Part shown: one piece after another, positions 16,579 through 29,619 of the stretch
Layout of the letters: each line of letters opens with the position of its first letter
How positions within the stretch are numbered: position 1 is the stretch's first letter
Origin: Gammaproteobacteria bacterium
Lineage (GTDB): Bacteria; Pseudomonadota; Gammaproteobacteria; Pseudomonadales; Litorivicinaceae
DNA length: 32,012 bases
Assembly (NCBI GenBank): GCA_002730235.1
Contig: PBZS01000094.1
Span: forward strand, 1 to 32,012
Direction of reading: 5' to 3'
The notes under the pieces: generated by a model
The model's input: only the letters and a program-made list of their open reading frames with translations
Database searches by the model: none
Told to the model about the DNA's origin: nothing
Position numbers and translations under genes: made by a program

Positions 16579-17454
16579 ATGTTTTCAATTTTACGTCTTT
16601 TTCTTCTCGCAGTCGCAACATTTTTGGGCGGATTGCTCATAACCCTCGTATCACCCCTCAAGTTATTCCCACCAACGCAGGCACTAAGCTATCGACTCGC
16701 CGTTCGTATTGCTGGGATTTGGGGTGACCTTATGCGTTGGCTATTGACAACGATACCCATGGAGTACGTCATCACCGGTGACAAAATTAATTCCAAAGGG
16801 ACTTATCTTATCCTCGCAAATCACCAAAGTTGGATTGACATCATGATGGTGATGGTTGTTCTCGGCAAGGGCACAACGCTTCCACGTTTTTTCATGAAAT
16901 GGGAACTGATTTATGTACCTGTTATCAATATTTGCGCGTGGACTCTAAACTTCCCAATAATGCGCCGCTTCACTCAGGAAGACGTGAAAGATAGACCTGG
17001 TTTGAAGAATCGTGATTTCAACCATGCCCACGACGTGTTGTCGCGGAACCCCGACCAGGCGTGTGTGGTGGTGAATTATGCTGAGGGCACGCGATTTACT
17101 CCCGAGAAACACAAGAAAAATCGTTCACCGTATCAGCATTTACTTAAACCCAAGGTTGGCGGTCCACAGCTCGCGCTTGATTGCCTCCGGGACCGTCTGG
17201 ATGGAGTATTTGATATCACGCTCGCATATCCCGGAGCACAACTCAGTGTCTGGCATTTACTCGCGGGTCGTATCCCCAAAGCCATGATCCACGTCGAGCA
17301 GATTGAGGTACCAAACGGGCTTGAAAAAAAACCAAAAACCTTAGCCGAACTCAAAGCCTTTCGAGGGTGGATGAATTCAATATGGGCGAAAAAAGATGCC
17401 CATATTGAACGGATGCTTAGCGGTATACCGGCAGACGATCACACATCGTCTTGA
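16579..17454 (+). CDS. PlsC-family acyltransferase, YihG-like
   Basis: The family transfers acyl chains to lysophosphatidic acid or similar lipids at the inner membrane. The 291 residues start with a hydrophobic anchor ([19 protein letters not shown]). The acyltransferase motif HX4D is His82-Asp87 in NHQSWID, followed by [19 protein letters not shown], and the glycerol-phosphate-binding [10 protein letters not shown] (Glu169 to Arg172). The ILANHQSW and NYAEGTRFT stretches resemble E. coli YihG more than PlsC. Its exact acceptor is not visible. It is divergent from the carboxylesterase gene with 77 bases between starts, and its last 38 bases overlap the convergent glyA. Confidence 0.87.
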
Positions 17455-18670
17455 CTTGACCACGGACTCTCCCCTTGACGCCCTCATCGTCAAGGTTATC
17501 AAGCACATCACAGATCAGATTAGCGAGCTCGTGACAGTCGCTTTCGACGAATCCACGGGTTGTTACAGCAGGTGTACCAATTCGGATCCCTGAGGTCACG
17601 AATGGCGACTGCGGGTCGTTTGGCACAGCATTCTTATTCACTGTAATATGTGACTCACCAAGCGCAGCATCAGCCGCTTTTCCTGTAATTCCCTGAGCAA
17701 CTAAATCGACCAGCATCAAGTGATTATCGGTTCCACCCGAGACGATTTTGAATCCACGTTCGACGAACACCGACGCCATCACCTGAGCATTTTTTACAAC
17801 CAGCTCTTGATAGGTCTTAAATTCCGGCTCCATTGCTTCTTTAAATGCAACGGCTTTAGCGGCAATCGCATGCATAAGCGGTCCACCCTGCATTCCAGGA
17901 AAAACAGCCGAATTGAGTTTTTTGTGGAGAGTTTCGTCATCCTGACCTGACAGAATCAAACCCGACCGGGGCCCGCGCAAGGTCTTGTGTGTTGTGGTTG
18001 TCACCACATGTGCGTGCGGGATGGGTGACGGATAAACATCGGCCGCAACGAGCCCTGCAATGTGGGCCATATCAACCAAAAAATAGGCACCAATATTATC
18101 GGCAATTTCCCGCATCTTCGCCCAATCAACCACACGAGAGTATGCCGAGAAACCACCAAGAATTAGCTTAGGCTTGTGCTTTTCAGCAAGGTCCGCTATC
18201 TGGTTGTAGTCCATGTATCCATCAGCATCGATCCCATACTGAACCGCGTTATAGACCTTACCCGAGAAGTTGACAGAGGCACCGTGTGTCAAGTGACCGC
18301 CATCCGCCAGTGACATACCCAGAACCGTATCGCCAGCTTCCATCAACGCGAGATAGGCTGCCGCATTGGCTTGCGAACCGGCATGAGGCTGCACATTTGC
18401 GTACTCCGCTCCAAAAAGCTTCTTTACGCGATCAATAGCCAACTGCTCGACCACGTCCACATGTTCACAACCTCCGTAGTAACGCTTACCGGGGTAACCT
18501 TCTGCATATTTATTTGTAAGAACTGATCCTTGCGCCTCCAGCACCCGAGGACTCGCATAGTTCTCCGAGGCAATCAGCTCAACGTGATCCTCTTGCCGTG
18601 TAGATTCATGCTTTAACGCCTCACACAAAACTTCATCGTATACTGATAATGATGAATTCATGTCGAACAT
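17417..18670 (-). CDS. glyA: Serine hydroxymethyltransferase
   Basis: GlyA is a cytoplasmic PLP enzyme that interconverts serine plus THF with glycine plus 5,10-methylene-THF. The 417 residues match E. coli GlyA. Hallmarks are [19 protein letters not shown], the [15 protein letters not shown] motif, [14 protein letters not shown], and the PLP-binding Lys229 in [12 protein letters not shown], with [15 protein letters not shown] near the end. AGGAG lies 9 bases before the ATG; a second ATG is 3 codons inside. It is divergent from the MetF-like gene at 18852, with 181 bases between. That placement ties it to the C1-folate run on the plus strand. I see no glycine riboswitch in front of it. Confidence 0.97.
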
Positions 18671-18851
18671 TTACGTTCACTCCTGTTACCTAATCATTCT
18701 GAGAGATCTATTGTTAAGTCACTGCTAACGGCTACGGGACCTTTCTGCACGCAATACGATCGCGCACTTTGAAGCGACCTATGATTTTAGTTACGATTCG
18801 TTAGATTCGGGTTGATCTGATGGTGGTACCCTAACAAAAAGTGGACATAAA
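18671..18851. promoter_or_regulatory. Divergent control region of glyA and the methylenetetrahydrofolate reductase gene
   Basis: The gap of 181 bases must hold promoters for both directions, but I find no clear -35/-10 pair. The element TTAGATTCG at 18801-18809, preceded by GATTCG, recurs in front of dmdA at 19730-19738 as ATTCGGTTAGATTCG. GTGGA, 8 bases before 18852, serves as ribosome binding site for the plus-strand gene. Confidence 0.35.
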
Positions 18852-19694
18852 ATGAAAACGTTTGATGCAAAGGGTATCCCCAATGGCTGGTCGATAGAAA
18901 TCACGCCTAAAGAAACTAAGACTATTAGTTGTTTCTCAACCTTTCTCGAAGAGGGCACCAAAGTTAACGTAACTAACCTGCCGAAGACGTCTATCCAAGA
19001 CACCCTCGCAGCGGTTGAGCAATTGAAACATGATGGCATGAATCCGATACCGCACATTACTGCCCGTACTATAACCGATGAAGATGACCTAACCAGAATC
19101 GTTTCAAATTATGCAAGCCTTGAGATCTCTGAGGTCCTAATTATCGCTGGCAGCAAAGGCCAAGCTGCTGGCAGCTTCTCAAGTTCCGTGGAACTCATTA
19201 GTTCTGGTGTATTTGAACACTTTGGTATAGTGAACATCGGAGTAGCAGGCCATCCGGAGGGTTCCCCCGACATCACAAAACAACAACTCGAGGACGCTCT
19301 ATATCAAAAAAATCACCTCGCAGTATCGCGAGATTTGAATATTTTTCTCGAGACTCAATTCTGCTTCGATGCACAGAAGATAATCGATTGGGAAAAGGCA
19401 ATTCGCGACCGAGGTAACTCGCTGCCAATCCGAGTCGGTATTGCTGGACCGACAAAATTACTCTCATTAATCAATTTTGCTATCAAGGCTGGTGTAGGAC
19501 CTTCATTAAAATTTCTAATTAACGAGCGAGATAAGCTTACCAAATTGGTGACTTCATACGATCCTACCGAACTTATTTTTTCTCTGGCTCCACAATTTTC
19601 CCCCGCAGCTAATACTTGCTTTGAGTCAATCCACTTCTACGCATTTGGCGGTTTTCAAGAAACCGCCAAATTCGCACAAAAATTATTCAAATAG
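18852..19694 (+). CDS. Divergent methylenetetrahydrofolate reductase (MetF family)
   Basis: The MetF fold binds FAD and interconverts 5,10-methylene-THF and 5-methyl-THF. The 280 residues can be laid beside E. coli MetF by order of motifs: SIEITPKE (Glu17, where MetF has FEFFPP), PHITARTIT (for HLTC), VLIIAGSKGQ (for the LRGD strand), NIGVAGHPEGSP (for AAYPExHP) and FLETQFCFD (for ITQFFFD). It is thus a distant, shorter relative, and the RGD strand is changed. Ahead of dmdA it may work in the oxidative direction, returning the methyl group from DMSP to methylene-THF; that direction is inference. It is unlikely to be the sole MetF for methionine synthesis. The last 50 bases contain a strong hairpin. 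Confidence 0.75.
   Translation: MKTFDAKGIPNGWSIEITPKETKTISCFSTFLEEGTKVNVTNLPKTSIQDTLAAVEQLKHDGMNPIPHITARTITDEDDLTRIVSNYASLEISEVLIIAGSKGQAAGSFSSSVELISSGVFEHFGIVNIGVAGHPEGSPDITKQQLEDALYQKNHLAVSRDLNIFLETQFCFDAQKIIDWEKAIRDRGNSLPIRVGIAGPTKLLSLINFAIKAGVGPSLKFLINERDKLTKLVTSYDPTELIFSLAPQFSPAANTCFESIHFYAFGGFQETAKFAQKLFK
19644..19670 (+). repeat. Perfect 11-base inverted repeat inside the 3' end of the MetF-like gene
   Basis: TTTGGCGGTTT and AAACCGCCAAA pair perfectly around the 5-base loop TCAAG. The hairpin ends 24 bases before the end of the stop codon of the MetF-like gene, so it is coding sequence (FGGFQETAKF) as well as structure. No U run follows directly, so it is not a plain terminator; it may be a processing or stability element between this gene and dmdA. 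Confidence 0.6.
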
Positions 19695-19808
19695 AATTTA
19701 CTCGGGTAGCTCAAGCCCTAAATATTCGGTTAGATTCGATTGTCAGCGAAAAATTAATTGACTCAAAGAAAAGTTTTCCTGCAAAGTCCGAAAAACAGAG
19801 GAGCGACC

Positions 19809-20921
19809 ATGACCATCTCCCTTTCAATCGGTCCACAGAATCGAAAAAGTCCTTTTTTTAACTCGACGCTACAGGATGGGCTCACGGCAGCTAGCATTTA
19901 TAACCACATGTATTTCCCAACCACTTTCGGTGACCGACCGGCGGAGTATGATCGATTATTAAACGGGGTAGCAATGTGGGATGTCAGCATAGAACGACAA
20001 GTTGCCTTCAAAGGCAGGGACGCAATAAAGCTTGCGCGGTATCTCACAGGTAGAAATCTGGACGACTTACAGATTGGTCAAGGTAAATACATTCCACTTT
20101 GCGATTACCGCGGTAGGCTTATTAACGATCCTATCCTTCTCCAAATTTCGAAAGACGAAATTTGGTTATCAATAGCAGATAGTGATATCAAATTATGGGT
20201 ATCGGGAATCGCTGACTCCCTTGAATATCAAGTTGATGTTTTCGAGCCTGACGCCTCGCCACTCGCTGTGCAAGGACCGCTTGCGACACCCTTGATAGCC
20301 GACCTATTTGGGCAGTGGATCCATGATCTCAAATTCTTTGGTTTCAGAGAAATAAAGTTAAAGGACATCCCGGTGATTTTGGCCAGATCTGGTTGGTCGA
20401 AACAGGGAGGCTTTGAAATCTATCTCCTCGATAAGAATTTAGGAGAAAACTTATGGGCCGAGATTAAGAGTGCGGGGGCAAAATACAATATCGGTCCAGG
20501 TGCCCCAAACTATATCGAACGATTGGAAAGTGGATTGCTGTCCTTCCGGACCGACTGTGACAAGCACAGTAATCCGTTTGAGTTCGGTCTTGGTCGTTTT
20601 ATTGACCTCGACCAAAATCAGGAGTTTATCGGCAAGACAGCACTGCAAAAGATTAAGGAGGCCGGCGTAAAACGGGACTTCATTGGACTCCGAATAGATG
20701 GGCCAAAGTTTAATTCACCCCCGGAAGACAGGTCTTCAATCTATTCTGATGATAAATACATCGGTTACTCGTCCGCAGCGGCATACAGTCCGAGACTGAA
20801 ATCCAATATTGCGGTCGGTGTTGTAGACATCTGTCATGCAATAGAAGGAGAGGTTGTACTTATTGACTTTTCAGACCATAAAAGAAAGGCACGAGTGACC
20901 ACACTACCAGTGTTTAGGTAA
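19809..20921 (+). CDS. dmdA: Dimethylsulfoniopropionate demethylase (DmdA), GcvT-fold
   Basis: DmdA moves a methyl group from DMSP to THF, giving methylmercaptopropionate (MMPA) and 5-methyl-THF, the first step of DMSP demethylation in marine bacteria. From the ATG at 19809, with AGAGGAG upstream, the product has 370 residues, the size of SAR11 DmdA. Diagnostic stretches are MWDVSIERQ (56-64), SIADSD (121-126), SPLAVQGP (150-157), ARSGWSKQGGFEIY (192-205) and PNYIERLESGLLSF (243-256). Trp170, Trp196 and Tyr205 fall about where I recall the substrate-pocket aromatics of the SAR11 enzyme; this is from memory and unaligned. The frame is open back to 19758 but without a ribosome site. The DmdB-like gene starts 7 bases downstream and supports the call. 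A GcvT-fold paralogue of other function is the main alternative. Confidence 0.83.
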   Translation: MTISLSIGPQNRKSPFFNSTLQDGLTAASIYNHMYFPTTFGDRPAEYDRLLNGVAMWDVSIERQVAFKGRDAIKLARYLTGRNLDDLQIGQGKYIPLCDYRGRLINDPILLQISKDEIWLSIADSDIKLWVSGIADSLEYQVDVFEPDASPLAVQGPLATPLIADLFGQWIHDLKFFGFREIKLKDIPVILARSGWSKQGGFEIYLLDKNLGENLWAEIKSAGAKYNIGPGAPNYIERLESGLLSFRTDCDKHSNPFEFGLGRFIDLDQNQEFIGKTALQKIKEAGVKRDFIGLRIDGPKFNSPPEDRSSIYSDDKYIGYSSAAAYSPRLKSNIAVGVVDICHAIEGEVVLIDFSDHKRKARVTTLPVFR

Positions 20922-20928
20922 GGAAAAA

Positions 20929-22569
20929 ATGACTACGGTAGATTCGATCAATAGTAAATTTATGGAGCCGAGGGTTGCGAATCACGTCCCTCTAAGTCCT
21001 CTGTCCTTTCTCAAGAGAACGGCCGCGGTTTATGGAAACAAACCAGCCACGACTTATAACGGAAAAACAAGGACATGGTCCGAGGTCTACAAACGCTGCT
21101 GCCTGTTTGCCTCCGCGGTTAAAAAATCTGGTATCAAGCGTGGTGAGGTTATAAGCGTTCTCGCTTTCAATACACCAGAAATGGTTGAATTACAGTTCGC
21201 CGTCGCGATGGCTGGGGGCGTATTGAATACCATAAATACTAGACTAGATGCAGACACAATCGCTGTGATCATAGCGCACGCGGAGCCTGCGATTATCGTC
21301 GTAGACGCCGAACTAACAGCGCAACTGGAATTAGCGCTTACTCAGACCCATAGTAGCGAAAAAGAATTAATTGTTATCCCGTGCCTCGAGCATGAGGCGG
21401 GCCGATATCACTTCGCAAAAGAGATTCTTTACGACGATTTTCTTGAAAGCGGGGACCCAGGTGATTCCTGGTCACTGCCAGAAAGTGAATGGGAAGCATA
21501 CGGCCTAAACTACACATCAGGTACGGGGGGCACACCAAAAGGTGTAGTGATCCATCACCGTGGTGCATATCTTATGGCTATGGGAACAGTGCCGGCATGG
21601 GGTGTACCGCAGCATCCCGTTTATCTTTATACGGTGCCAATGTTTCATTGTAACGGCTGGGGCCATGCTTGGCTTAATGCGCTTGTAGCAGGTTCAATTA
21701 TTTGCTTAAAAAAGATTAGTGCCAAAATAATTTTCGATGCGATAAGTGAATATAAAGTCACGCACTTTGGAGGTGCTCCAGTCGTTCTGGGACTCTTGAT
21801 CAACGCCACAGAAAATGACCAGAAGATATTAAAGCATTCCGTTCAAGTCATGACAGCAGGTGCGCCGCCGCCGCCCGCTATTCTTGAAAAAATTGAACAT
21901 TTGGGGATGGAGGTAATGCAGGTCTATGGCTTGACTGAAACGTTTGGCCACATAATGCACTGTGCCTGGAACACAGACTGGGATAATCTAGATTTTAGTG
22001 AACGGGCGACTATAAAAGCCCGCCAGGGTGTCCAATTCACTCACACTGAAGAAACAGAAGTACTTGGGCTAGCAGACGACAAGCCAGTGCCACATGATGG
22101 AAAAACTCAAGGCGAAATTGTGATTAGGTCTAACACTTTGATGAAGGGTTATCACAAAGATGAGTCAGCAACAGAGGCTGTCTTCAAAGATGGTAAATAT
22201 TTCCTGACTGGAGACATCGCAGTCCGACATCCTGGCGGATATATTGAAATCAAAGACCGGCTAAAAGATGTAATAATTTCGGGCGGAGAAAATATTTCCT
22301 CTGTCGAGGTAGAAAACGTTTTGTATCGGCTACCAGGGGTTGCGTGTGCAGCGGTTATAGCCAAACCCAACGAAAAATGGGGCGAGATACCCATCGCTGT
22401 GATTGAGCTCAAAGAAGACACAGAATACTCAGAGACTGAAATACTCGACCATTGCCGTCGCTCGCTTGCTGGATTTAAGACCCCAAAGGAAGTCGTATTC
22501 AAAGAAATCCCAAAGACTGCTACCGGTAAAGTTCAAAAATTTTTATTGCGTCAAGAATACGATTCATGA
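20929..22569 (+). CDS. dmdB: Acyl-CoA synthetase, probable MMPA-CoA ligase (DmdB-like)
   Basis: DmdB activates methylmercaptopropionate with ATP and CoA, the step after DmdA. The 546 residues are an AMP-forming synthetase. The N-terminus NHVPLSPLSFLKRTAAVYGN recalls characterised DmdB. The P-loop reads YTSGTGGTPKGV (195-206), with Gly where most have Thr (SGTTG). Further motifs are VPMFHCNGWGHAW, MQVYGLTETFGH, LTGDIA, KDRLKDVIISGGENIS, and Lys534 in KTATGKVQK, the adenylation lysine. AAGGA is 5 bases before the ATG. Its stop overlaps the DUF2182 start (ATGA). A medium-chain acyl-CoA ligase is the alternative from sequence alone; the position after dmdA decides for DmdB. DmdC and DmdD, the next enzymes, are not in the window. 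Confidence 0.78.
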   Translation: MTTVDSINSKFMEPRVANHVPLSPLSFLKRTAAVYGNKPATTYNGKTRTWSEVYKRCCLFASAVKKSGIKRGEVISVLAFNTPEMVELQFAVAMAGGVLNTINTRLDADTIAVIIAHAEPAIIVVDAELTAQLELALTQTHSSEKELIVIPCLEHEAGRYHFAKEILYDDFLESGDPGDSWSLPESEWEAYGLNYTSGTGGTPKGVVIHHRGAYLMAMGTVPAWGVPQHPVYLYTVPMFHCNGWGHAWLNALVAGSIICLKKISAKIIFDAISEYKVTHFGGAPVVLGLLINATENDQKILKHSVQVMTAGAPPPPAILEKIEHLGMEVMQVYGLTETFGHIMHCAWNTDWDNLDFSERATIKARQGVQFTHTEETEVLGLADDKPVPHDGKTQGEIVIRSNTLMKGYHKDESATEAVFKDGKYFLTGDIAVRHPGGYIEIKDRLKDVIISGGENISSVEVENVLYRLPGVACAAVIAKPNEKWGEIPIAVIELKEDTEYSETEILDHCRRSLAGFKTPKEVVFKEIPKTATGKVQKFLLRQEYDS

Positions 22570-23342
22570 CAAATCTGGACGGGATGCCAACGATAACCCG
22601 ACCATCCTACATTTTTTGGATCTTATTTTACGGAGGCATCTGTTCGAGTTGGCTGCTACTTTTCGTCATGTCGGGCGCCGACAAAGGATCGAGCTTTGAT
22701 TTTATTAAGGACTTGTGCCTATCAGCATCCAAGGCGTCTATATCTCAGCTTATGGGAATGTGGGGTCTGATGATCGGGGCAATGATGCTTCCCTCGTTTT
22801 ACAACTTCGTAGTCGTCCACCAAGATATTAGACGAGATAATTTCAGGCATACGGCTCTACTTACATCGGGTTATGTTACGGTTTGGTTAACGGTGGTCCC
22901 TCTGGCAGGCCTTACTCAGAAGTACTTCCTCGATCAGGATTTGATAGATCTAGATGGTAGAAGTCAGTCAATGTTTTTAAGCAGTCTTCTTCTGTTCACA
23001 GCTGGTGTATATCAGTTCACAAAAATCAAAAATACATGCCTTAGTGTCTGCTCATCCCCAATGCATTTCTTCTTAAGTCATTGGAAAGAAGGCTACATAG
23101 GCTCTTACCGGATGGGCATGCACTTGGGTATGGTCTGCGTTATTTGTTGTTGGGCTCTTATGCTTCTAGCATTCGTAGGCGGTGCGATGAATATGGTTTG
23201 GATGGCTGGTTTAACATCCATTATGGTTATCGAGAAACAAGGCTACCTAAGCAAAAATTTCTCTGGCCTGGTAGGGCTGACACTCCTAGGTGCAGCCACG
23301 ATCACCTTCGTTCTATCGTTCGTTTTGGAGGTAATGATATGA
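22566..23342 (+). CDS. DUF2182 family integral membrane protein
   Basis: A conserved, predicted metal-binding inner-membrane protein without assigned function. The 258 residues have about six hydrophobic segments. Family features are a Met-rich helix MGMWGLMIGAMMLPSFYN (about 63-80), the loop YQFTKIKNTCLSVCSSPMHFF with Cys158 and Cys162, and VCVICCWALMLLAFVGGAMNMVWMA. DUF2182 genes often stand beside DUF1326 genes, as here: the DUF1326 start overlaps its stop (ATGA). It begins in the stop codon of the dmdB-like gene, so the three are translationally coupled. Metal binding is a family guess from the Met, Cys and His residues. Confidence 0.82.
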   Translation: MTNLDGMPTITRPSYIFWILFYGGICSSWLLLFVMSGADKGSSFDFIKDLCLSASKASISQLMGMWGLMIGAMMLPSFYNFVVVHQDIRRDNFRHTALLTSGYVTVWLTVVPLAGLTQKYFLDQDLIDLDGRSQSMFLSSLLLFTAGVYQFTKIKNTCLSVCSSPMHFFLSHWKEGYIGSYRMGMHLGMVCVICCWALMLLAFVGGAMNMVWMAGLTSIMVIEKQGYLSKNFSGLVGLTLLGAATITFVLSFVLEVMI

Positions 23343-23959
23343 GCATAGAAATCCCTTCTTGGCACATCAAGGGAGAACTCATTCTTAATTGTAATTGTAC
23401 GGTCTTTTGCCCCTGCGTGATTAGCTTGGGTGCGCACTATCCCACAGAAGGCCACTGTCAAGCATGGCTTGGTGTGGATATTCATGAAGGACGATTTGAT
23501 AACGAGGATCTAGACGGCCTCAAAGTAGCGATGCTCCTCGATATACCGGGTCGAATGTCCAGAGGGGATTGGAAAGCTGGAATATTTATCGATCAAAGAG
23601 CGTCCGCTCCCGCACACGAGGGCCTCAGCCAGATATTCAGCGGCAAAGCGAAAGGAACTACTCACCTTTTCTCCCTGCTAATTAGTGAGCATCTCGGTAC
23701 CTCCCGGGAGCCAATTGAGTTCAAAACAGAAAATCAGATTCGAAGTCTCACGGTGGGGAAAAAAATCATTGGAAGTGTTGAGCCAATAAGTGGGGCCGAC
23801 GAAAATCAAACAGTTGTCGTCACAAATACAAACTACTGGATGGGCCCGGACATAACAGTATCAAAGGCACTGAAAGGCAAGGTTAGAGCATTTGGTCGGG
23901 TCTGGGACTTTGAAGATCGAAGCGCCGAAATATGTCAGATCAATTGGACCGGTCCGTAG
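23339..23959 (+). CDS. DUF1326 family protein, Cys-rich
   Basis: A conserved protein of unknown function that pairs with DUF2182. From the ATG at 23339, overlapping the DUF2182 stop, it has 206 residues and no signal peptide. The N-terminal motif CNCTVFCPC (Cys18, 20, 24, 26) is the family mark and looks like a metal or redox site. It is followed by GHCQAWLGVDIHEGRFD and, in the middle, GIFIDQRASAPAHEGLSQIFSGK. The frame is open back to 23081 but that part is a shadow of DUF2182. The gene ends 107 bases before the glycine riboswitch with no visible terminator, so transcription may run on into gcvT. Confidence 0.82.
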   Translation: MSIEIPSWHIKGELILNCNCTVFCPCVISLGAHYPTEGHCQAWLGVDIHEGRFDNEDLDGLKVAMLLDIPGRMSRGDWKAGIFIDQRASAPAHEGLSQIFSGKAKGTTHLFSLLISEHLGTSREPIEFKTENQIRSLTVGKKIIGSVEPISGADENQTVVVTNTNYWMGPDITVSKALKGKVRAFGRVWDFEDRSAEICQINWTGP

Positions 23960-24003
23960 AAATTCTGTTCGGCATGATTTTTGTAATCTTGCTTGCCTAC
24001 GGG

Positions 24004-24032
24004 TTGCCTGAGAGGTTTTTAAAGGTAATAAT
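24004..24032 (+). promoter_or_regulatory. Candidate sigma-70 promoter of the gcvTHP operon
   Basis: TTGCCT (24004-24009) and AATAAT (24027-24032) are separated by 17 bases. Against TTGACA and TATAAT they match 4/6 and 5/6. Transcription would begin near 24040, just before the glycine riboswitch, as expected for its leader. An additional TTGCCT lies 11 bases upstream. Confidence 0.5.
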
Positions 24033-24066
24033 ATTCGATCCTCGCAATTTATTTTGCGACCGTCTC

Positions 24067-24221
24067 AGCGGGAGAGAGCACTCACGTGCCGCCGAAGGAG
24101 CAACCGACTCGGAAACTCTCAGGCAGAAGGACCGCTTTGATGAATGAGGAATCTGGAAAGAAGCAATCGCTCACCGAAGGAGAAAGGGGTCAAACCTGAA
24201 TCTCTCAGGTCTATGACAGAT
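24067..24221 (+). promoter_or_regulatory. Tandem glycine riboswitch (two aptamers)
   Basis: The leader of gcvT holds two glycine aptamers. The first spans about 24067-24136, closed by AGCGG/CCGCT, with the core GCCGAAGGAGCAA and AACTCTCAGGCAGAAGGACC. The second spans about 24151-24221, closed by ATCTG/CAGAT, with CACCGAAGGAGAAA and GAATCTCTCAGGT. GCCGAAGGAG plus CTCTCAGG is the hallmark of this class. A short linker joins them. Glycine binding is known to switch on glycine-cleavage genes, which fits the gcvT gene 33 bases downstream. Confidence 0.95.
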
Positions 24222-24258
24222 GGGTCATGCGAAATAGCCTGTAAGGAGGATGCATGAC
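24222..24258 (+). promoter_or_regulatory. Predicted riboswitch expression platform covering the gcvT start
   Basis: GTCATGC (24224-24230) and GCATGAC (24252-24258) are a perfect 7-base inverted repeat, and the second arm contains the gcvT start codon. CCT (24238-24240) can also pair with part of the AAGGAGG ribosome site (24243-24249). TCAT of the first arm can pair instead with ATGA at 24144-24147, extending the closing stem of aptamer 2. Glycine binding could thus free the start codon. The pairing is visible; the mechanism is inference. Confidence 0.5.
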
Positions 24259-25369
24259 AGATCTACACTCGTTGGTTTTAGAATCATTCCATGCTGAGCA
24301 AGGCGCGAGATTTGGCCCATTCGCTGGCTATAGGATGCCCATACAGTATCCACTCGGAGTCAAGGGCGAACACATACATACCCGAGATGCTGTTGGTCTC
24401 TTCGACGTGTCACATATGGGCCAACTCCTTATCGAAGGGGCCGGTGCGACAAAGGCTCTTGAGAGATTGGTTCCAGCATCGCTTCAAGATATGACTCGCG
24501 GTCAAATTCGGTATTCACAGCTGACGCTTGATAATGGTGGAATTCTCGATGATTTAATGCTGACTCGTTGGGACCACGAGTCCTGGAGGCTAGTAGTCAA
24601 CGGCGCCTGCAAATTCGAGGACATAAGACACCTTAAAACGTACCTGCCAGCAGAAGTGACCATACGCTATTTGGATAATTACTCCTTGATCGCCGTCCAG
24701 GGTCCCAAAGCTCGGCGCATTCTTTCTGAGCTTATACCTGATGCAAGGACGCTTGTATTCATGCGTTCACTGCAAACGACATGGAATGACTGTGACATAG
24801 TGCTGTCATGCTGCGGGTACACGGGTGAAGATGGGTATGAAATCTCGATCGCCAAACAATTTGTGCATGAACTAGCCGATGCGCTCACGGATTTGGCGGA
24901 GACCACTTGGGTTGGGTTGGGCGCTCGAAATTCACTTCGGCTTGAGACAGGTCTGTGCCTTTATGGGAACGATCTCACTACCGACACGACACCAATCGAG
25001 GCTGATCTGCTGTGGTCAATTCAGAAACGGCGCAGGATAGATGGTGGGTTTCTGGGTGCCAAAATAATTCTCAAACAGATCACGGATGGAGTATCGAGAA
25101 AACGAGTGGGGATTAAGCCGAAAGATGGAAAAACTCCGTTGAGAGAGCATACGGTATTGAAAAATATCGCTGGCGATTTGGTTGGAGAAATCACTTCTGG
25201 AGGTTTCGGGCCAACGCGCAGGGGACCCGTGGCTATGGGTTACGTATCACAGTATTTGAGTGCACTCGGCACAGAATTAGTTGCAGAAGTCAGGGGCAAG
25301 CCCCTTAGTTGCACCGTCTGCGATCCAATTTTTATCCAACAACGCTACGTTCGTAATTTGAGCTGCTGA
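24254..25369 (+). CDS. gcvT: Glycine cleavage system T protein (aminomethyltransferase)
   Basis: GcvT takes the aminomethyl group from lipoylated GcvH and THF, releasing ammonia and methylene-THF. The 371 residues are close to the E. coli length. Motifs are RFGPFAGYRMPIQYPLG and GLFDVSHMGQLLIEG near the start, GGILDDLMLTRW with the folate-contacting Asp at about 101, and SCCGYTGEDGYEIS, GLGARNSLRLETGLCLYGNDL and the late TSGGFGPTRRGPVAMGYV. The ribosome site AAGGAGG is strong, with 4-5 bases to the ATG, and lies in the riboswitch hairpin. It shares its fold with the DmdA-like protein 3.3 kb upstream, but differs in the motifs above. Confidence 0.95.
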   Translation: MTDLHSLVLESFHAEQGARFGPFAGYRMPIQYPLGVKGEHIHTRDAVGLFDVSHMGQLLIEGAGATKALERLVPASLQDMTRGQIRYSQLTLDNGGILDDLMLTRWDHESWRLVVNGACKFEDIRHLKTYLPAEVTIRYLDNYSLIAVQGPKARRILSELIPDARTLVFMRSLQTTWNDCDIVLSCCGYTGEDGYEISIAKQFVHELADALTDLAETTWVGLGARNSLRLETGLCLYGNDLTTDTTPIEADLLWSIQKRRRIDGGFLGAKIILKQITDGVSRKRVGIKPKDGKTPLREHTVLKNIAGDLVGEITSGGFGPTRRGPVAMGYVSQYLSALGTELVAEVRGKPLSCTVCDPIFIQQRYVRNLSC

Positions 25370-25381
25370 GAGGACCACTGC

Positions 25382-25756
25382 ATGACTGTCAAATATACTC
25401 GCGAACACGAATGGATCCGTATCGAAGGTGATACGGCAACGGTCGGTGTCACTTTCTATGCCCAAGAACAACTCGGCGATGTCGTCTTTGTGGAATTACC
25501 TGACGCCGACACATCAGCTGATCAGGGCACTGAAGTCGCGGTAGTAGAGTCTGTAAAGGCAGCAAGTGACATCTACGCACCGGTCACCGGAACCATTGTC
25601 GAATCCAATGCAGAATTGTCGAACCGACCGGAACTGGTTAACGAGGATCCAGAGAACGATGGTTGGTTTTTCAAAATCAAAATAACCGATACATCAGAAC
25701 TCGAAGATCTGCTCGATGAAGCTGACTATCAAGCCTTTATTCAAGAAGAATTGTAA
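25382..25756 (+). CDS. gcvH: Glycine cleavage system H protein (lipoyl carrier)
   Basis: GcvH carries the aminomethyl intermediate on a lipoyl arm between the P, T and L proteins. The 124 residues are the usual size. The lipoyl lysine is Lys59 in EVAVVESVKAASDIYAPVTG. Other hallmarks are TREHEWIRIEGD and YAQEQLGDVVFVELPD at the N-terminus and NEDPENDGWFFKIKI. The ATG has AGAGGA upstream and lies 12 bases after gcvT. The lipoyl group may be made by LipA, encoded in the same run. Confidence 0.97.
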   Translation: MTVKYTREHEWIRIEGDTATVGVTFYAQEQLGDVVFVELPDADTSADQGTEVAVVESVKAASDIYAPVTGTIVESNAELSNRPELVNEDPENDGWFFKIKITDTSELEDLLDEADYQAFIQEEL

Positions 25757-25768
25757 GAGGTAAATTGC

Positions 25769-28600
25769 GTGAAGCAGGAAATGATATTTCGCGATCGTCA
25801 TATCGGCCTATCCGAAGATGAACGAGCCGTGATGCTCGAGACTTTGAGTCTAAAATCGATGAACGATTTGGCCACCAAAGTGGTCCCAGAGAATATTCGA
25901 AAAACAACACAGATGATAATTCCGGAGGCGGTATCCGAGGTAGATGCTCTTGCGCATCTAAAAGCAATTGCCATGAAAAACCAGGTGGTCCGCTCACTGA
26001 TCGGACAGGGCTATTACCACACGCTTACACCGGCGGTCATCCAACGCAATGTTCTCGAAAATCCCGGCTGGTATACAGCCTATACCCCATACCAGCCAGA
26101 AATTTCTCAGGGTCGACTCGAGGCTATTTTTAATTACCAAACGATGATTGTTGAACTCACCGGTATGGCTGTTGCTAATGCATCCCTGCTTGATGAGGGC
26201 ACAGCAGCTGCTGAAGCGATGACGCTTTGTGAACGGAGCTCTAAGTCGAAGTCGAAAAGGTTTTACGTCGCCAATAACGTCTTCAGCCAAACTCAAGCCG
26301 TTATAAGGACAAGGGCAAAACCTCTTGGATTTGAAATTATTGAGTTTGATCCACAAGACCCACCCATATTTACGGATGCCTTCGGCTTGATCACTCAATA
26401 CACAGGAAAAGATGGATCAATAACAAACATCAAACCATTAATCGAATCGGCGAAAACCCAAGGGATTCTTACAATCGTTGCCGCCGACATCTTAAGCCTC
26501 ACCATACTTGAAGCGCCCGGATATTTGGGTGCGGATATTTGTCTAGGCTCGACACAACGCTTTGGGGTACCGATGGGCAATGGGGGACCACATGCCGCCT
26601 TTTTTGCGGTCGCAGAAAAACTAAAAAGGCATATCCCCGGCCGTCTTGTCGGTCAGTCTATTGATTCCGAGGGCCGTCACGCGTTCCGATTGACACTGCA
26701 AACACGTGAGCAACATATCCGTCGCGAGAAGGCCACCAGCAATATCTGTACAGCACAGGTACTTCTCGCCAATATCGCAGGATTTTATGCGTGCTATCAC
26801 GGACCTGACGCCCTAGCAGCACAGGCTATAAGGGTTAACCAGCTCGCTTCACGATTCCATGCTGGAATCAAGGCCACTGGTCAAATGGTCAACCATACGT
26901 TCTTTGATACTGTCTCGATTCGAGTGGACAATGCGGACGACACTCTAGCCGCAGCGCTCGCGTTTGGATTCAATATTTATAAAGCGGACCAGACAACGGT
27001 CTCAGTATCATTCGATGAGGCATCGACCGAAGCAGAATTAAAAAAGCTGGCTCAGTTATTTAGTATCTCGCCCGGGGCTCCAAAATCCGATATCCCAACC
27101 TATGCCGTGAGATATTCGGAATTCATGAGCCAAGAAGCATTCAACACCTATCACTCTGAAACCGAAATGACGCGGTATTTACGTAAATTGGCAGACCGGG
27201 ATCTAGCCCTCGACCGGGCCATGATTCCGCTGGGGTCCTGCACTATGAAACTCAACGCAGCCTCAGAGATGACACCAGTTACTTGGCCTGAATTCGCCAA
27301 CATACATCCGTTCGCACCAGCCTCCCAACGCCTTGGTTACCAGGAAATGATAGAAAACCTAAATGATTGGCTTTCCGAAATAACAGACTATGACACTATC
27401 TCGCTACAGCCCAATTCAGGTGCGCAGGGGGAATACGCCGGACTTCTGGCCATCCAAGGCTATCATCAATCACGTGGTGAAAGTCATCGCAAGATTTGTC
27501 TTGTTCCCTCCTCCGCACACGGCACGAATCCAGCCTCGGCCCAGATGGTAGGTCTCGATGTTGTGGTGGTTGGTTGCGATCAACACGGCAATATTGACCT
27601 CGACGATTTGAGGTCGAAGGTGGAAATACACGGAACAAATGTGTCTTGCCTGATGATAACCTACCCATCAACACACGGCGTGTTCGAGACCGAGGTACAG
27701 GAAGTCTGTTCAGTGATACATGCTGTGGGTGGTCAAATATACTTGGATGGAGCCAACCTAAATGCACAAGTTGGACTCACGAGTCCAGGAATCGTCGGTT
27801 CTGATGTTTCTCACCTGAATCTTCATAAGACCTTCTGTATACCGCATGGAGGAGGTGGACCAGGAGTTGGGCCAATTGGCGTTGCTGAGCACTTAAGGCC
27901 ATTTATGCCCGGGCATCCGGAGTTAAAAGGTGATCACACGATCGGGCCAGTGTCGGCCGCACCATACGGTTCTGCATTGATTCTTCCGATTTCTTGGATG
28001 TATATCCGAATGATGGGGCCTGATGGCCTTACCGCAGCGACAGAAAACGCAATCTTATCGGCCAATTACATTGCCAAGCGGCTCTCACCACACTATCCAA
28101 TTCTCTACACTGATCCTTGCGGATTTGTTGCACACGAGTGCATTGTTGACACTCGGGTAGTCAAAGCGGCTGCGGGTATCACAGTTGATGATATTGCAAA
28201 ACGCCTAATCGATTATGGATTTCATGCACCAACGATGAGCTGGCCAGTCGCTGGAACATTGATGATCGAGCCAACAGAAAGCGAACCATTAAGCGAACTA
28301 GATCGGTTTTGTAATGCGATGATCTCAATCCGAAACGAAATCACAGTAATCGAAAACGGAGAGGGATCGGCTGAGGATTCTGTATTACGTCATGCCCCAT
28401 ATACTGTAGAAGCAGTAACGGCTCATAACTGGGATTATCGATTCTCACGACAGGAGGCTGCATTTCCCCTACCTTCATTGAGGAAGGATCGCTACTGGCC
28501 ACCAGTCGGTCGGATTGATAATGTATACGGTGACCGAAACCTAGTTTGCAGTTGCCCACCGCTTTCTGAGTACGCAGATACACCAACGGAAGCCGCATGA
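25769..28600 (+). CDS. gcvP: Glycine dehydrogenase (decarboxylating), P protein
   Basis: GcvP is the PLP enzyme that decarboxylates glycine and loads the aminomethyl group onto GcvH. The 943 residues show the single-chain form, with the catalytic half C-terminal. The PLP-binding lysine is Lys687 in [18 protein letters not shown]. Other family stretches are FRDRHIG at the start, [46 protein letters not shown] and [16 protein letters not shown] take the GTG at 25769, with AGAGG 8 bases upstream; an ATG at 25781 is in frame but has poor spacing. The stop overlaps the lipA start (ATGA). The L protein (dihydrolipoyl dehydrogenase) is not in the window; it is usually encoded elsewhere. Confidence 0.97.
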
Positions 28601-29619
28601 CAGAACACAACTCACGCTCAAAGAGCGGCGACAAAATTATCAATGCAGTCGGTGTAAAGGCCATTAAAAACGGTCAGAAACGCCGGTCAGATGAGAAGGC
28701 TCCGCGCGGTGATAAACCGAATTGGCTGCGCTTTGTAAGCCCTGGAGGACAAGGCTACCAAGACGTCAAAAAAATCGTCCGAACCCATAGCCTTTCCACC
28801 GTGTGTGAGGAAGCAATGTGCCCCAATATTGGTGAGTGCTGGAGTGCAGGAACCGCCACAATCATGCTAATGGGGTCAGTATGCACGCGAGCTTGTAAGT
28901 TCTGTGCGGTTGATACTGGCAACCCTAAAGGATGGATTGATTTACATGAACCACAGAATACAGCTGATTCTGTTGCTTTAATGGGGCTTAAATATGTGGT
29001 CCTGACCAGCGTGAATCGGGACGACCTTGATGACGGCGGAGCGAATCACTTCGCTGCCACCGTACGCGCAATCAAACAAAAAAGTCCCGACACCGCAGTC
29101 GAAGCATTAACGCCAGATTTTCAGGGAGTTATATCTGATGTTGAGACAATTATAGACTCGGGGCTTGAGGTATTCGCTCAGAACGTAGAGACAGTCAAAC
29201 GACTTACGCAACCTGTGAGAGATCCTCGTGCGAGTTATCAACAAACCCTTAATGTTTTATATCACGGAAAAAAATATAGACCCAAAGTGCTTACCAAAAC
29301 CAGTTTGATGCTAGGCCTTGGTGAAACTGAGGACGAAATTAGACAAGCCATGGACGATATGCGTGAGCATGAAGTGGATATCGTCACCTTTGGCCAGTAT
29401 TTAAGACCGACAGTTAATCATTTACCGATCGATCGGTACGTTACTCCCGAACAATTTGATCTCTATCGCAAATGGGGTCTTGAACGTGGATTTCTTGAGG
29501 TCATTTCAGGACCAATGGTCCGTTCGAGCTACCGTGCCGAACGTGCTCTTTTGAAAAATAACGCGGGTATTGCAAATGCCGCAATTGAACGAAACACCAT
29601 CCCCCTAAAGCGATTATGA
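28597..29619 (+). CDS. lipA: Lipoyl synthase
   Basis: LipA is a radical SAM enzyme that inserts two sulfurs into a protein-bound octanoyl group to give lipoate. The 340 residues include the auxiliary iron-sulfur cluster cysteines Cys70, Cys75 and Cys81 ([12 protein letters not shown]), the radical SAM set Cys96, Cys100 and Cys103 (CTRACKFC), and RSSYRA near residue 309, whose serine ligates the auxiliary cluster. The N-terminal 40 residues are basic and poorly conserved. It starts in the gcvP stop codon (ATGA), so it is in the gcv operon. GcvH needs the lipoyl group, which explains the link. LipB, the octanoyl transferase, is not seen. Confidence 0.97.

Follow-up and report, generated by a model that had tools for sequence, protein, structure and literature searches.

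A five-gene cassette lies between the divergent glyA gene and the glycine-cleavage (gcv) genes of the DNA analysed here (hereafter the window), which is 32,012 nucleotides long and constitutes one entire contig (C94, PBZS01000094.1) of the gammaproteobacterial genome G000. The cassette (18852–23959) encodes a MetF-like protein, a DmdA-like protein, an acyl-CoA ligase, a DUF2182 protein and a DUF1326 protein. Its linkage to the gcv genes is real, and what sits at this one-carbon junction is more than a static operon: it is a cassette that can be exchanged. We consider it fairly probable that the cassette is a self-contained, horizontally exchanged methyl-harvest unit, which would turn methyl groups of dimethylsulfoniopropionate (DMSP) into one-carbon units. 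Its parts are of known kinds; what is new is the arrangement, the mobility and, in some carriers, the loss of metF and metH. DMSP demethylation sets the share of DMSP carbon and sulfur that is kept in the food web versus lost as dimethyl sulfide.

The window's genome (2.10 Mb, 88% complete) falls into the OM252/HIMB30 genus ('Ca. Halomarinus' group; PMC8269220; here and below, statements from papers cited by PMC number refer to the excerpts available). The closest named loci are from the marine gammaproteobacterial metagenome-assembled genomes MED759 and NP1472, a 'Litoricola' single cell and the cultured HIMB30.

Gene content of the locus and proposed function

Genes and RNA elements were assigned by comparing bit scores with the curated cut-offs of NCBIfam, Pfam and Rfam models. 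The features of the locus are as follows.

17417–18670, minus strand: glyA, serine hydroxymethyltransferase (NF000586, 645.9 bits, cut-off 335); marks the left edge of the insertion site in relatives with and without an insert
18671–18851, no strand: divergent region of 181 bp between glyA and the cassette
18852–19694, plus strand: MetF-like second methylenetetrahydrofolate reductase, cassette gene 1 (PF02219, 36.2 bits)
19758–20921, plus strand: DmdA-like tetrahydrofolate methyltransferase, cassette gene 2 (NF009133 DmdA, 360.1 bits, under the cut-off of 410)
20929–22569, plus strand: acyl-CoA ligase, DmdB-like, cassette gene 3 (NF006020, 733 bits, cut-off 677)
22566–23342, plus strand: DUF2182/PpoB2 membrane protein, putative copper chaperone, cassette gene 4 (PF09948, 170.5 bits)
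23336–23959, plus strand: DUF1326 protein with a CNCTVFCPC motif, cassette gene 5 (PF07040, 165.8 bits)
24059–24144, plus strand: glycine riboswitch, first aptamer (RF00504, 64.1 bits, gathering score 32)
24145–24229, plus strand: probable second half of a tandem glycine riboswitch, seen by eye from the hallmark CTCTCAGG and not reported by Rfam
24254–25369, plus strand: gcvT (NF010093, 475.6 bits, cut-off 459)
25382–25756, plus strand: gcvH (TIGR00527, 161.4 bits, cut-off 115.85)
25769–28600, plus strand: gcvP (TIGR00461, 1356.1 bits, cut-off 859.2)
28597–29619, plus strand: lipA, lipoyl synthase (TIGR00510, 378.3 bits, cut-off 310.25)

An initial annotation of the window had described MetF-like, DmdA and DmdB-like genes in line with riboswitch-controlled gcvT-gcvH-gcvP-lipA, with glyA divergent at their head, and had suggested a salvage island for one-carbon units. 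All of these genes were recovered at the positions and on the strands it gave, and the aptamer at 24059–24144 confirms the riboswitch. The gene order held as well, with two genes (DUF2182 and DUF1326) overlooked between ligase and riboswitch. The gene names fit at the level of families and are looser than had been claimed: the MetF-like protein scored 42.6 bits on the canonical model TIGR00676 (cut-off 293.7), passing PF02219 (cut-off 24), the DmdA-like protein stayed below its cut-off, and the ligase passed only the subfamily PRK08162, with 276 bits against a cut-off of 822 on the PRK07008 model.

GlyA and glycine cleavage exchange methylene-tetrahydrofolate (methylene-THF) with serine and glycine. 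In the working that we propose, the DmdA-like enzyme would demethylate DMSP with THF as the methyl acceptor, and the cassette's own methylenetetrahydrofolate reductase (MTHFR), which is of the 7xg9 type, would oxidise the methyl-THF to methylene-THF and so avoid the folate trap. The neighbouring GlyA and glycine-cleavage enzymes would then swap this methylene-THF with serine and glycine. The ligase would activate residual methylmercaptopropionate, and the DUF2182–DUF1326 pair may assist DMSP demethylation as an accessory unit that probably handles a metal (copper). DMSP as the substrate, the direction of flux and the role of the DUF pair are inferred.

The glyA–gcvT gap is variable across the genus

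The locus was compared in 25 genomes (G000–G024), 22 of them from the same genus, with G000 being the window's genome and G009 that of HIMB30. gcvT was present in 19 of the 22, and the gap between glyA and gcvT, scored in these 19, showed six states. It was empty (273–286 bp) in six genomes (G001, G003, G006, G007, G011, G020), measured 781 bp without a listed open reading frame (ORF) in G014, and contained only a cupin-like gene in G002 and G015 (~1.04 kb; assigned by reading, with no NCBIfam match). In G010 it was filled by a ~17-kb island (L231:765–18005, contig C1) with the same cupin-like gene, sarcosine oxidase genes and a betaine transporter. Here soxB scored 663.5 bits (cut-off 529) and the ProV-type transporter ATPase 338 bits (cut-off 327); soxD (76 versus 116.5) and soxA (1114 versus 1164) were both under their cut-offs. 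A soxA search at E 1e-100 gave a match in one of the 22 genus genomes, that of G010, and in two of three sister-genus genomes. The cassette runs in the direction of gcv in seven of the 19 genomes (G000, G005, G008, G012, G016, G017, G018), and a diverged cassette stands in the opposite direction in two (G009 and G019). The same flanks, alternative contents and incongruent phylogeny (see below), by which an island or hot spot is recognised, were thus all found at this site.

Nine of the 22 genus genomes carry the cassette. In eight of them a single contig holds glyA, cassette and gcvT arranged in this way; G016, the ninth, has the cassette split over two contig ends that fit the arrangement. 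The physical linkage that the initial annotation had pointed out is therefore confirmed in the genus, and the linkage of glyA, cassette and gcv is not due to chance. Beyond the genus, 88 DmdA-like loci, some on short contigs, showed no such linkage to glyA or gcv within 6 kb.

All 18 relatives searched have a glycine aptamer before gcvT, including ten that lack the cassette; both tandem aptamers exceeded the threshold in five of the 18. Because the aptamer also stands in cassette-free relatives, the riboswitch belongs to gcv and is independent of the insert. Co-transcription was rejected as a general explanation of the layout, since the allele of HIMB30 and G019 is reversed. The reading of the locus as one transcriptional unit is accordingly not supported: the reversed allele breaks a single operon, and the evidence supports a one-carbon link instead. 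Promoter and terminator predictions were dropped as evidence, as promoter-like sites were fewer than in shuffled sequence (2 versus a mean of 9.1) and terminators were at chance level (5 versus 4.9); the promoter scan found no promoter-like pattern in the divergent region 18671–18851.

The site could also be merely permissive, with a metabolically meaningless glyA/gcv neighbourhood that is kept since homologous flanks ease exchange. We regard this as possible and do not favour it. It would account for the very different contents of one gap, down to a lone cupin gene, for the occurrence of both orientations, in which co-transcription is not conserved, and for the lack of glyA/gcv linkage at the 88 outside loci. 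Against a purely permissive site stands the point that both large inserts, the DMSP-type cassette and the sarcosine oxidase with betaine transporter, would yield folate one-carbon units.

The cassette has moved between species

Relative to the window, the flanking genes of G012 and G018 are as distant as those of HIMB30 (gcvT 73–74% and gcvP 80–81% identity, versus 74% and 81%). Their cassettes are as similar to the window's as those of near relatives, with identities of 81–83% for the MetF-like protein, 88% for the ligase and 88–90% for DUF1326; the corresponding values for the HIMB30 cassette are 46%, 67% and 67%. A 16-row tree of gcvP pairs G018 with HIMB30 as its sister (96% identity) although G018 has the other, forward allele, and G012 is placed with the cassette-free G001 and G015. 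Constraining this tree to unite the seven forward carriers cost 127.9 log units (approximately unbiased (AU) test, p-AU 5.8e-41). Since the grouping by cassette is rejected on gcvP, the cassette has moved between species. The identity of glyA to that of the window is also raised in G012 and G018 (93–94% versus 89–90%), and glyA may therefore have travelled with the cassette. The simplest reading of these comparisons is that the cassette was replaced by recombination at the conserved flanks.

A second MTHFR accompanies the cassette

The best match to PF02219 was MetF, or a piece of it, in all 25 genomes, and a second, weak match occurred in exactly the nine cassette carriers. The second MTHFR is hence present in 9/9 carriers and 0/16 non-carriers. 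In G017 the weak match lies just under the curated cut-off, and the best match contains two stops and is 34% identical to the MetF of G005. The best solved relative of the window's MetF-like protein is 7xg9 (E 1.2e-49), to which it is 34% identical, compared with 21% to a canonical MetF. The notion of a one-carbon island is strengthened by this dedicated second MTHFR, as it is by the sarcosine/betaine methyl-donor module in the same gap.

Pairing of a 7xg9-type MTHFR with an aminomethyltransferase is recurrent: MetF-like genes also stand next to DmdA-like and other GcvT-related genes in SAR86 and at one Cryomorphaceae locus (L123, L125, L128, L114).

Canonical metF normally resides at another site, which in G001 and HIMB30 reads crotonase-like gene, ArsR-methyltransferase, metF, metH, pdxB-like gene and a gene for a 1173-aa protein read as mfd. 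At this site metF can be recognised only over its first 104 codons in G000 (L066:4221–4598, contig C34) and over its first 99, with a stop, in G019 (L240:1837–2133, contig C3); both relics lie inside contigs with the outer flanks in place. metH is gone after the relic, and the pdxB-like gene follows, in G000 after a 131-aa ORF. MetH was found in 22 of the 25 genomes (one partial), the exceptions being G000, G017 and G019; the normal site was not seen in G017. Loss of metF-metH in three of nine carriers versus none of 16 non-carriers has a one-sided chance probability of 84/2300 = 0.037, or 36/300 = 0.12 when G017 (78% complete) is omitted, both calculated by hand and uncorrected for relatedness.

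If G000 and G019 have no other methionine synthase, only the cassette MTHFR could drain methyl-THF, which supports, for these genomes, the oxidative direction put forward in the initial annotation. We tentatively propose that the glyA|gcv junction is an exchange port for methyl-donor catabolism, where species trade two diverged DMSP-type alleles, in both orientations, and a betaine/sarcosine module next to the enzymes that would use the resulting one-carbon units, and that in some carriers, together with the loss of metF-metH, the DMSP methyl group may enter as a serine/glycine one-carbon unit and not as the methyl group of methionine. Where metF-metH may be lacking, a cassette that brings its own MTHFR would offer a clean test of the fate of DMSP methyl groups.

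The DmdA-like protein and its position among known DmdAs

The DmdA-like protein probably starts at the ATG at 19809, where several relatives begin. It matches P. ubique DmdA (3tfh) with E 1.3e-78, and the active-site motifs SGWSKQGG and PNxIER are conserved. In a motif table, rows on the DmdA side mostly have SG(W/Y)SKQGG and ER, and the other set has forms such as RTGWSSELGYE and IRR. The site residues W197, E204 and Y206 (P. ubique numbering) correspond to W213, E220 and Y222 of the window's protein; they were equated with W171, E178 and Y180 of PMC7487153 by reading a 26-residue offset. These residues are weakly diagnostic, because P. inhibens DmdA has Y at the position of W197 and most non-DmdA rows keep W.

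Two trees were calculated, leaving out G017 because of many undetermined letters in its sequence; both were built without the SAR92 protein of HTCC2207. The first (101 rows) was rooted on a single GcvT row with an outgroup branch length of 10, and the window's clade did not group with the tested DmdAs. The tree was then rebuilt with nine outgroup rows and 74 of the earlier 100 non-outgroup rows (83 rows in total). Here the window's clade joined the tested DmdAs together with a Chloroflexi/Thioglobus-type set (support 94/90, not starred and flagged for long branches) and was separated from the SAR86/SAR92/Loktanella-type set. The motif table agrees with this placement. The protein thus probably sits next to the clade of tested DmdAs. 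The initial annotation had named a position outside the DmdA clade as grounds for giving up its proposal; that position is half borne out, the protein lying outside the tested clade and probably adjacent to it. Membership of classical DmdA in the strict form was rejected on the sub-cut-off score and this tree position.

Two of the carriers, G016 and G017, have a second DmdA-like gene (41%; L059:9469–13543 and L060:11765–15851). In G016 it is followed by genes for an OsmC-like protein, an enoyl-CoA hydratase and an acyl-CoA ligase, as in Loktanella L163.

Ligase and DUF2182–DUF1326 pair resemble those of classical dmdA clusters

The cassette ligase is 51% identical to the ligase beside dmdA on Marinovum pMaD9 and 49% identical to that of the P. 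inhibens dmd cluster. On pMaD9 the gene order is DUF2182, DUF1326, ligase, DmdA, an alcohol dehydrogenase (read as AcuI) and SBP56/MtoX, and both DUF proteins are annotated as involved in DMSP breakdown. Antarctobacter has the order DUF2182, DUF1326, dmdA, MDR oxidoreductase, and at the actinobacterial loci L145 and L149 the pair directly precedes a DmdA of the tested group. The pair accordingly stands beside dmdA at two Roseobacter loci (L158:8227–9618, L159:8199–9609) and two actinobacterial ones (L145:4342–5774, L149:7609–9013).

A survey of 398 Pseudomonadota genomes (E 1e-12) matched DUF1326 in 44, with classical dmdA defined by at least 67% identity to that of Marinovum. At 50% identity or more, 24 genomes remained, the window's included; this subfamily is distinct, all other matches having 35% or less apart from short pieces of up to 39%. 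Classical dmdA was present in 15 of the 398. Judged by coordinates, all but two of the 15 (G406 and G159) have DUF1326 at most 1.7 kb upstream of dmdA in the same orientation; among these 13, G513 and G515 are nearly identical to each other. The DUF1326 copies beside classical dmdA are 50–67% identical to the window's. The 24 genomes thus comprise these 13, that of the window, G446 with a dmdA remnant and AcuI, G151 with a ligase, and eight without a DmdA match at E 1e-50, in two of which the neighbours were inspected. This recurrence beside dmdA makes the pair a concrete gene target.

The remnant in G446 (L224:7955–8362) is a short DmdA-like piece beside a DUF2182-DUF1326-AcuI run. In several Pseudomonadota genomes a small gene of ~170–180 aa lies between DUF1326 and classical dmdA (L227:8752–9291, L229:6953–7468).

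That the pair handles copper is our guess, prompted by its CNCTVFCPC motif and by the name of the Pfam family. A search of PDB sequences with DUF1326 returned nothing credible, and an AlphaFold model was not used (mean predicted local distance difference test score 44.3). No papers were found under the two DUF names, possibly a limit of the library or the search; one paper on dmdA and a copper chaperone concerns SCO1 beside mtoX. Methanethiol oxidase was considered as a possible client of the DUF2182 'copper chaperone'; MtoX is absent from G000, though SBP56 is present in the Marinovum cluster.

Substrate and direction of the pathway

Several results weigh against a DMSP-demethylating cassette. 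Neither the window's protein nor that of HIMB30 (385.6 bits) reaches the NCBIfam DmdA equivalog cut-off (PRK12486, 410 bits), which proteins from G027 and G070, of the same order, exceed with 463 and 458 bits, and in both trees the window's protein falls outside the clade of tested DmdAs (P. ubique, P. inhibens). Within 6 kb, 30 of the 33 loci of its wider clade, counted without the forward carriers, have none of the sought partner genes; only G009, G019 and Marivivens do. Outside the genus, the closest loci (SAR116, 57–59% identity) lack MetF-like, ligase and DUF neighbours. A search for P. inhibens-type DmdC at E 1e-60 in the 25 genomes found none in eight of the nine carriers, a homologue being present only in G000 (37%) and G022. 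MtoX is absent from the window's genome, and six carriers retain canonical metF and metH.

Alternatively, the DmdA-like enzyme could demethylate another compound, such as a different sulfonium or a quaternary ammonium donor, as a paralogue like SAR11_1265. The sub-cut-off score, the tree position, the 30 loci without partner genes and the missing DmdC favour this alternative, and a MetF-like protein also accompanies other DmdA-like proteins, at nine of 33 'other' loci (SAR86 in six cases). For SAR11_1265 itself, an aminomethyltransferase encoded next to metF, no substrate is known (PMC3160333). We nevertheless consider another substrate unlikely. The active-site motifs match those of P. ubique DmdA, the ligase and the DUF pair resemble those of classical dmdA clusters, and the Marivivens relative from the window's clade adjoins genes for an AMP-ligase, an acyl-CoA dehydrogenase and dmdD. 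A DmdA of low identity can still be functional: those of SAR92, with 35–40% identity to ratified ones, bring methanethiol production of a dmdA mutant of R. pomeroyi back to 34–54% (PMC10746254). Under standard conditions, P. inhibens needs dmdA for DMSP to shorten its lag phase (PMC12366255), and known DmdAs have Km values in the millimolar range (5.4 and 13.2 mM; PMC5395565).

A reductive MetF-like enzyme that replaces canonical MetF and supplies methyl-THF for methionine would explain the metF relics of G000 and G019 but is quite improbable, given that metH, the known methyl-THF user, is gone at the same site with no other MetH found in these two genomes (MetE was not searched), that six carriers keep canonical metF, and that the cassette protein resembles 7xg9 more than it does canonical MetF.

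Comparison with known systems

A survey of the cosmopolitan OM252 group reports DMSP demethylation genes as missing from all its genomes, HIMB30 included (PMC8269220). The survey likely missed the cassette because its proteins score under the curated DmdA cut-off. In the open-licence literature nothing further was found on HIMB30 and DMSP, nor anything on dmdA with glycine cleavage and a genomic island. Since the cultured HIMB30 carries the cassette, the question is directly testable.

The Roseobacter dmdA clusters (Marinovum algicola pMaD9, Antarctobacter heliothermus pSMS3-2, P. inhibens pPGA1_262) share with the cassette a demethylase accompanied by the ligase, DUF2182–DUF1326 or both. They differ in that no MTHFR is annotated in the stretches shown and that they are not beside glyA or gcv; instead, they carry an AcuI-like dehydrogenase, DmdD with an acyl-CoA dehydrogenase, or MtoX. 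The SAR92 cluster dmdA-acuH-dmdB-dmdC likewise has a gammaproteobacterial DmdA of low identity to ratified ones but another gene order, and no metF is named in the paper (PMC10746254).

Catabolic MTHFRs include 7xg9, which we take to be from Sphingobium SYK-6 and linked to the demethylation of lignin aromatics, and the MetF of Methylobacterium chloromethanicum CM4, presumably metF2. They serve THF-dependent demethylation, as proposed for the cassette enzyme, but are tied to chloromethane or lignin aromatics and not to DMSP and gcv. The CM4 MetF is named in the paper that proposes an oxidative use for the pair SAR11_1264 (metF) and SAR11_1265, in which an MTHFR adjoins a DmdA-related aminomethyltransferase as it does here (PMC3160333). 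The SAR11 pair, likened by its published description, differs in its unknown substrate and in that no ligase or DUF pair is named beside it in the available text (PMC3160333).

Glycine-riboswitch gcvTHP operons share the tandem-type riboswitch before gcvT; here, a catabolic cassette is inserted between the divergent glyA and the riboswitch.

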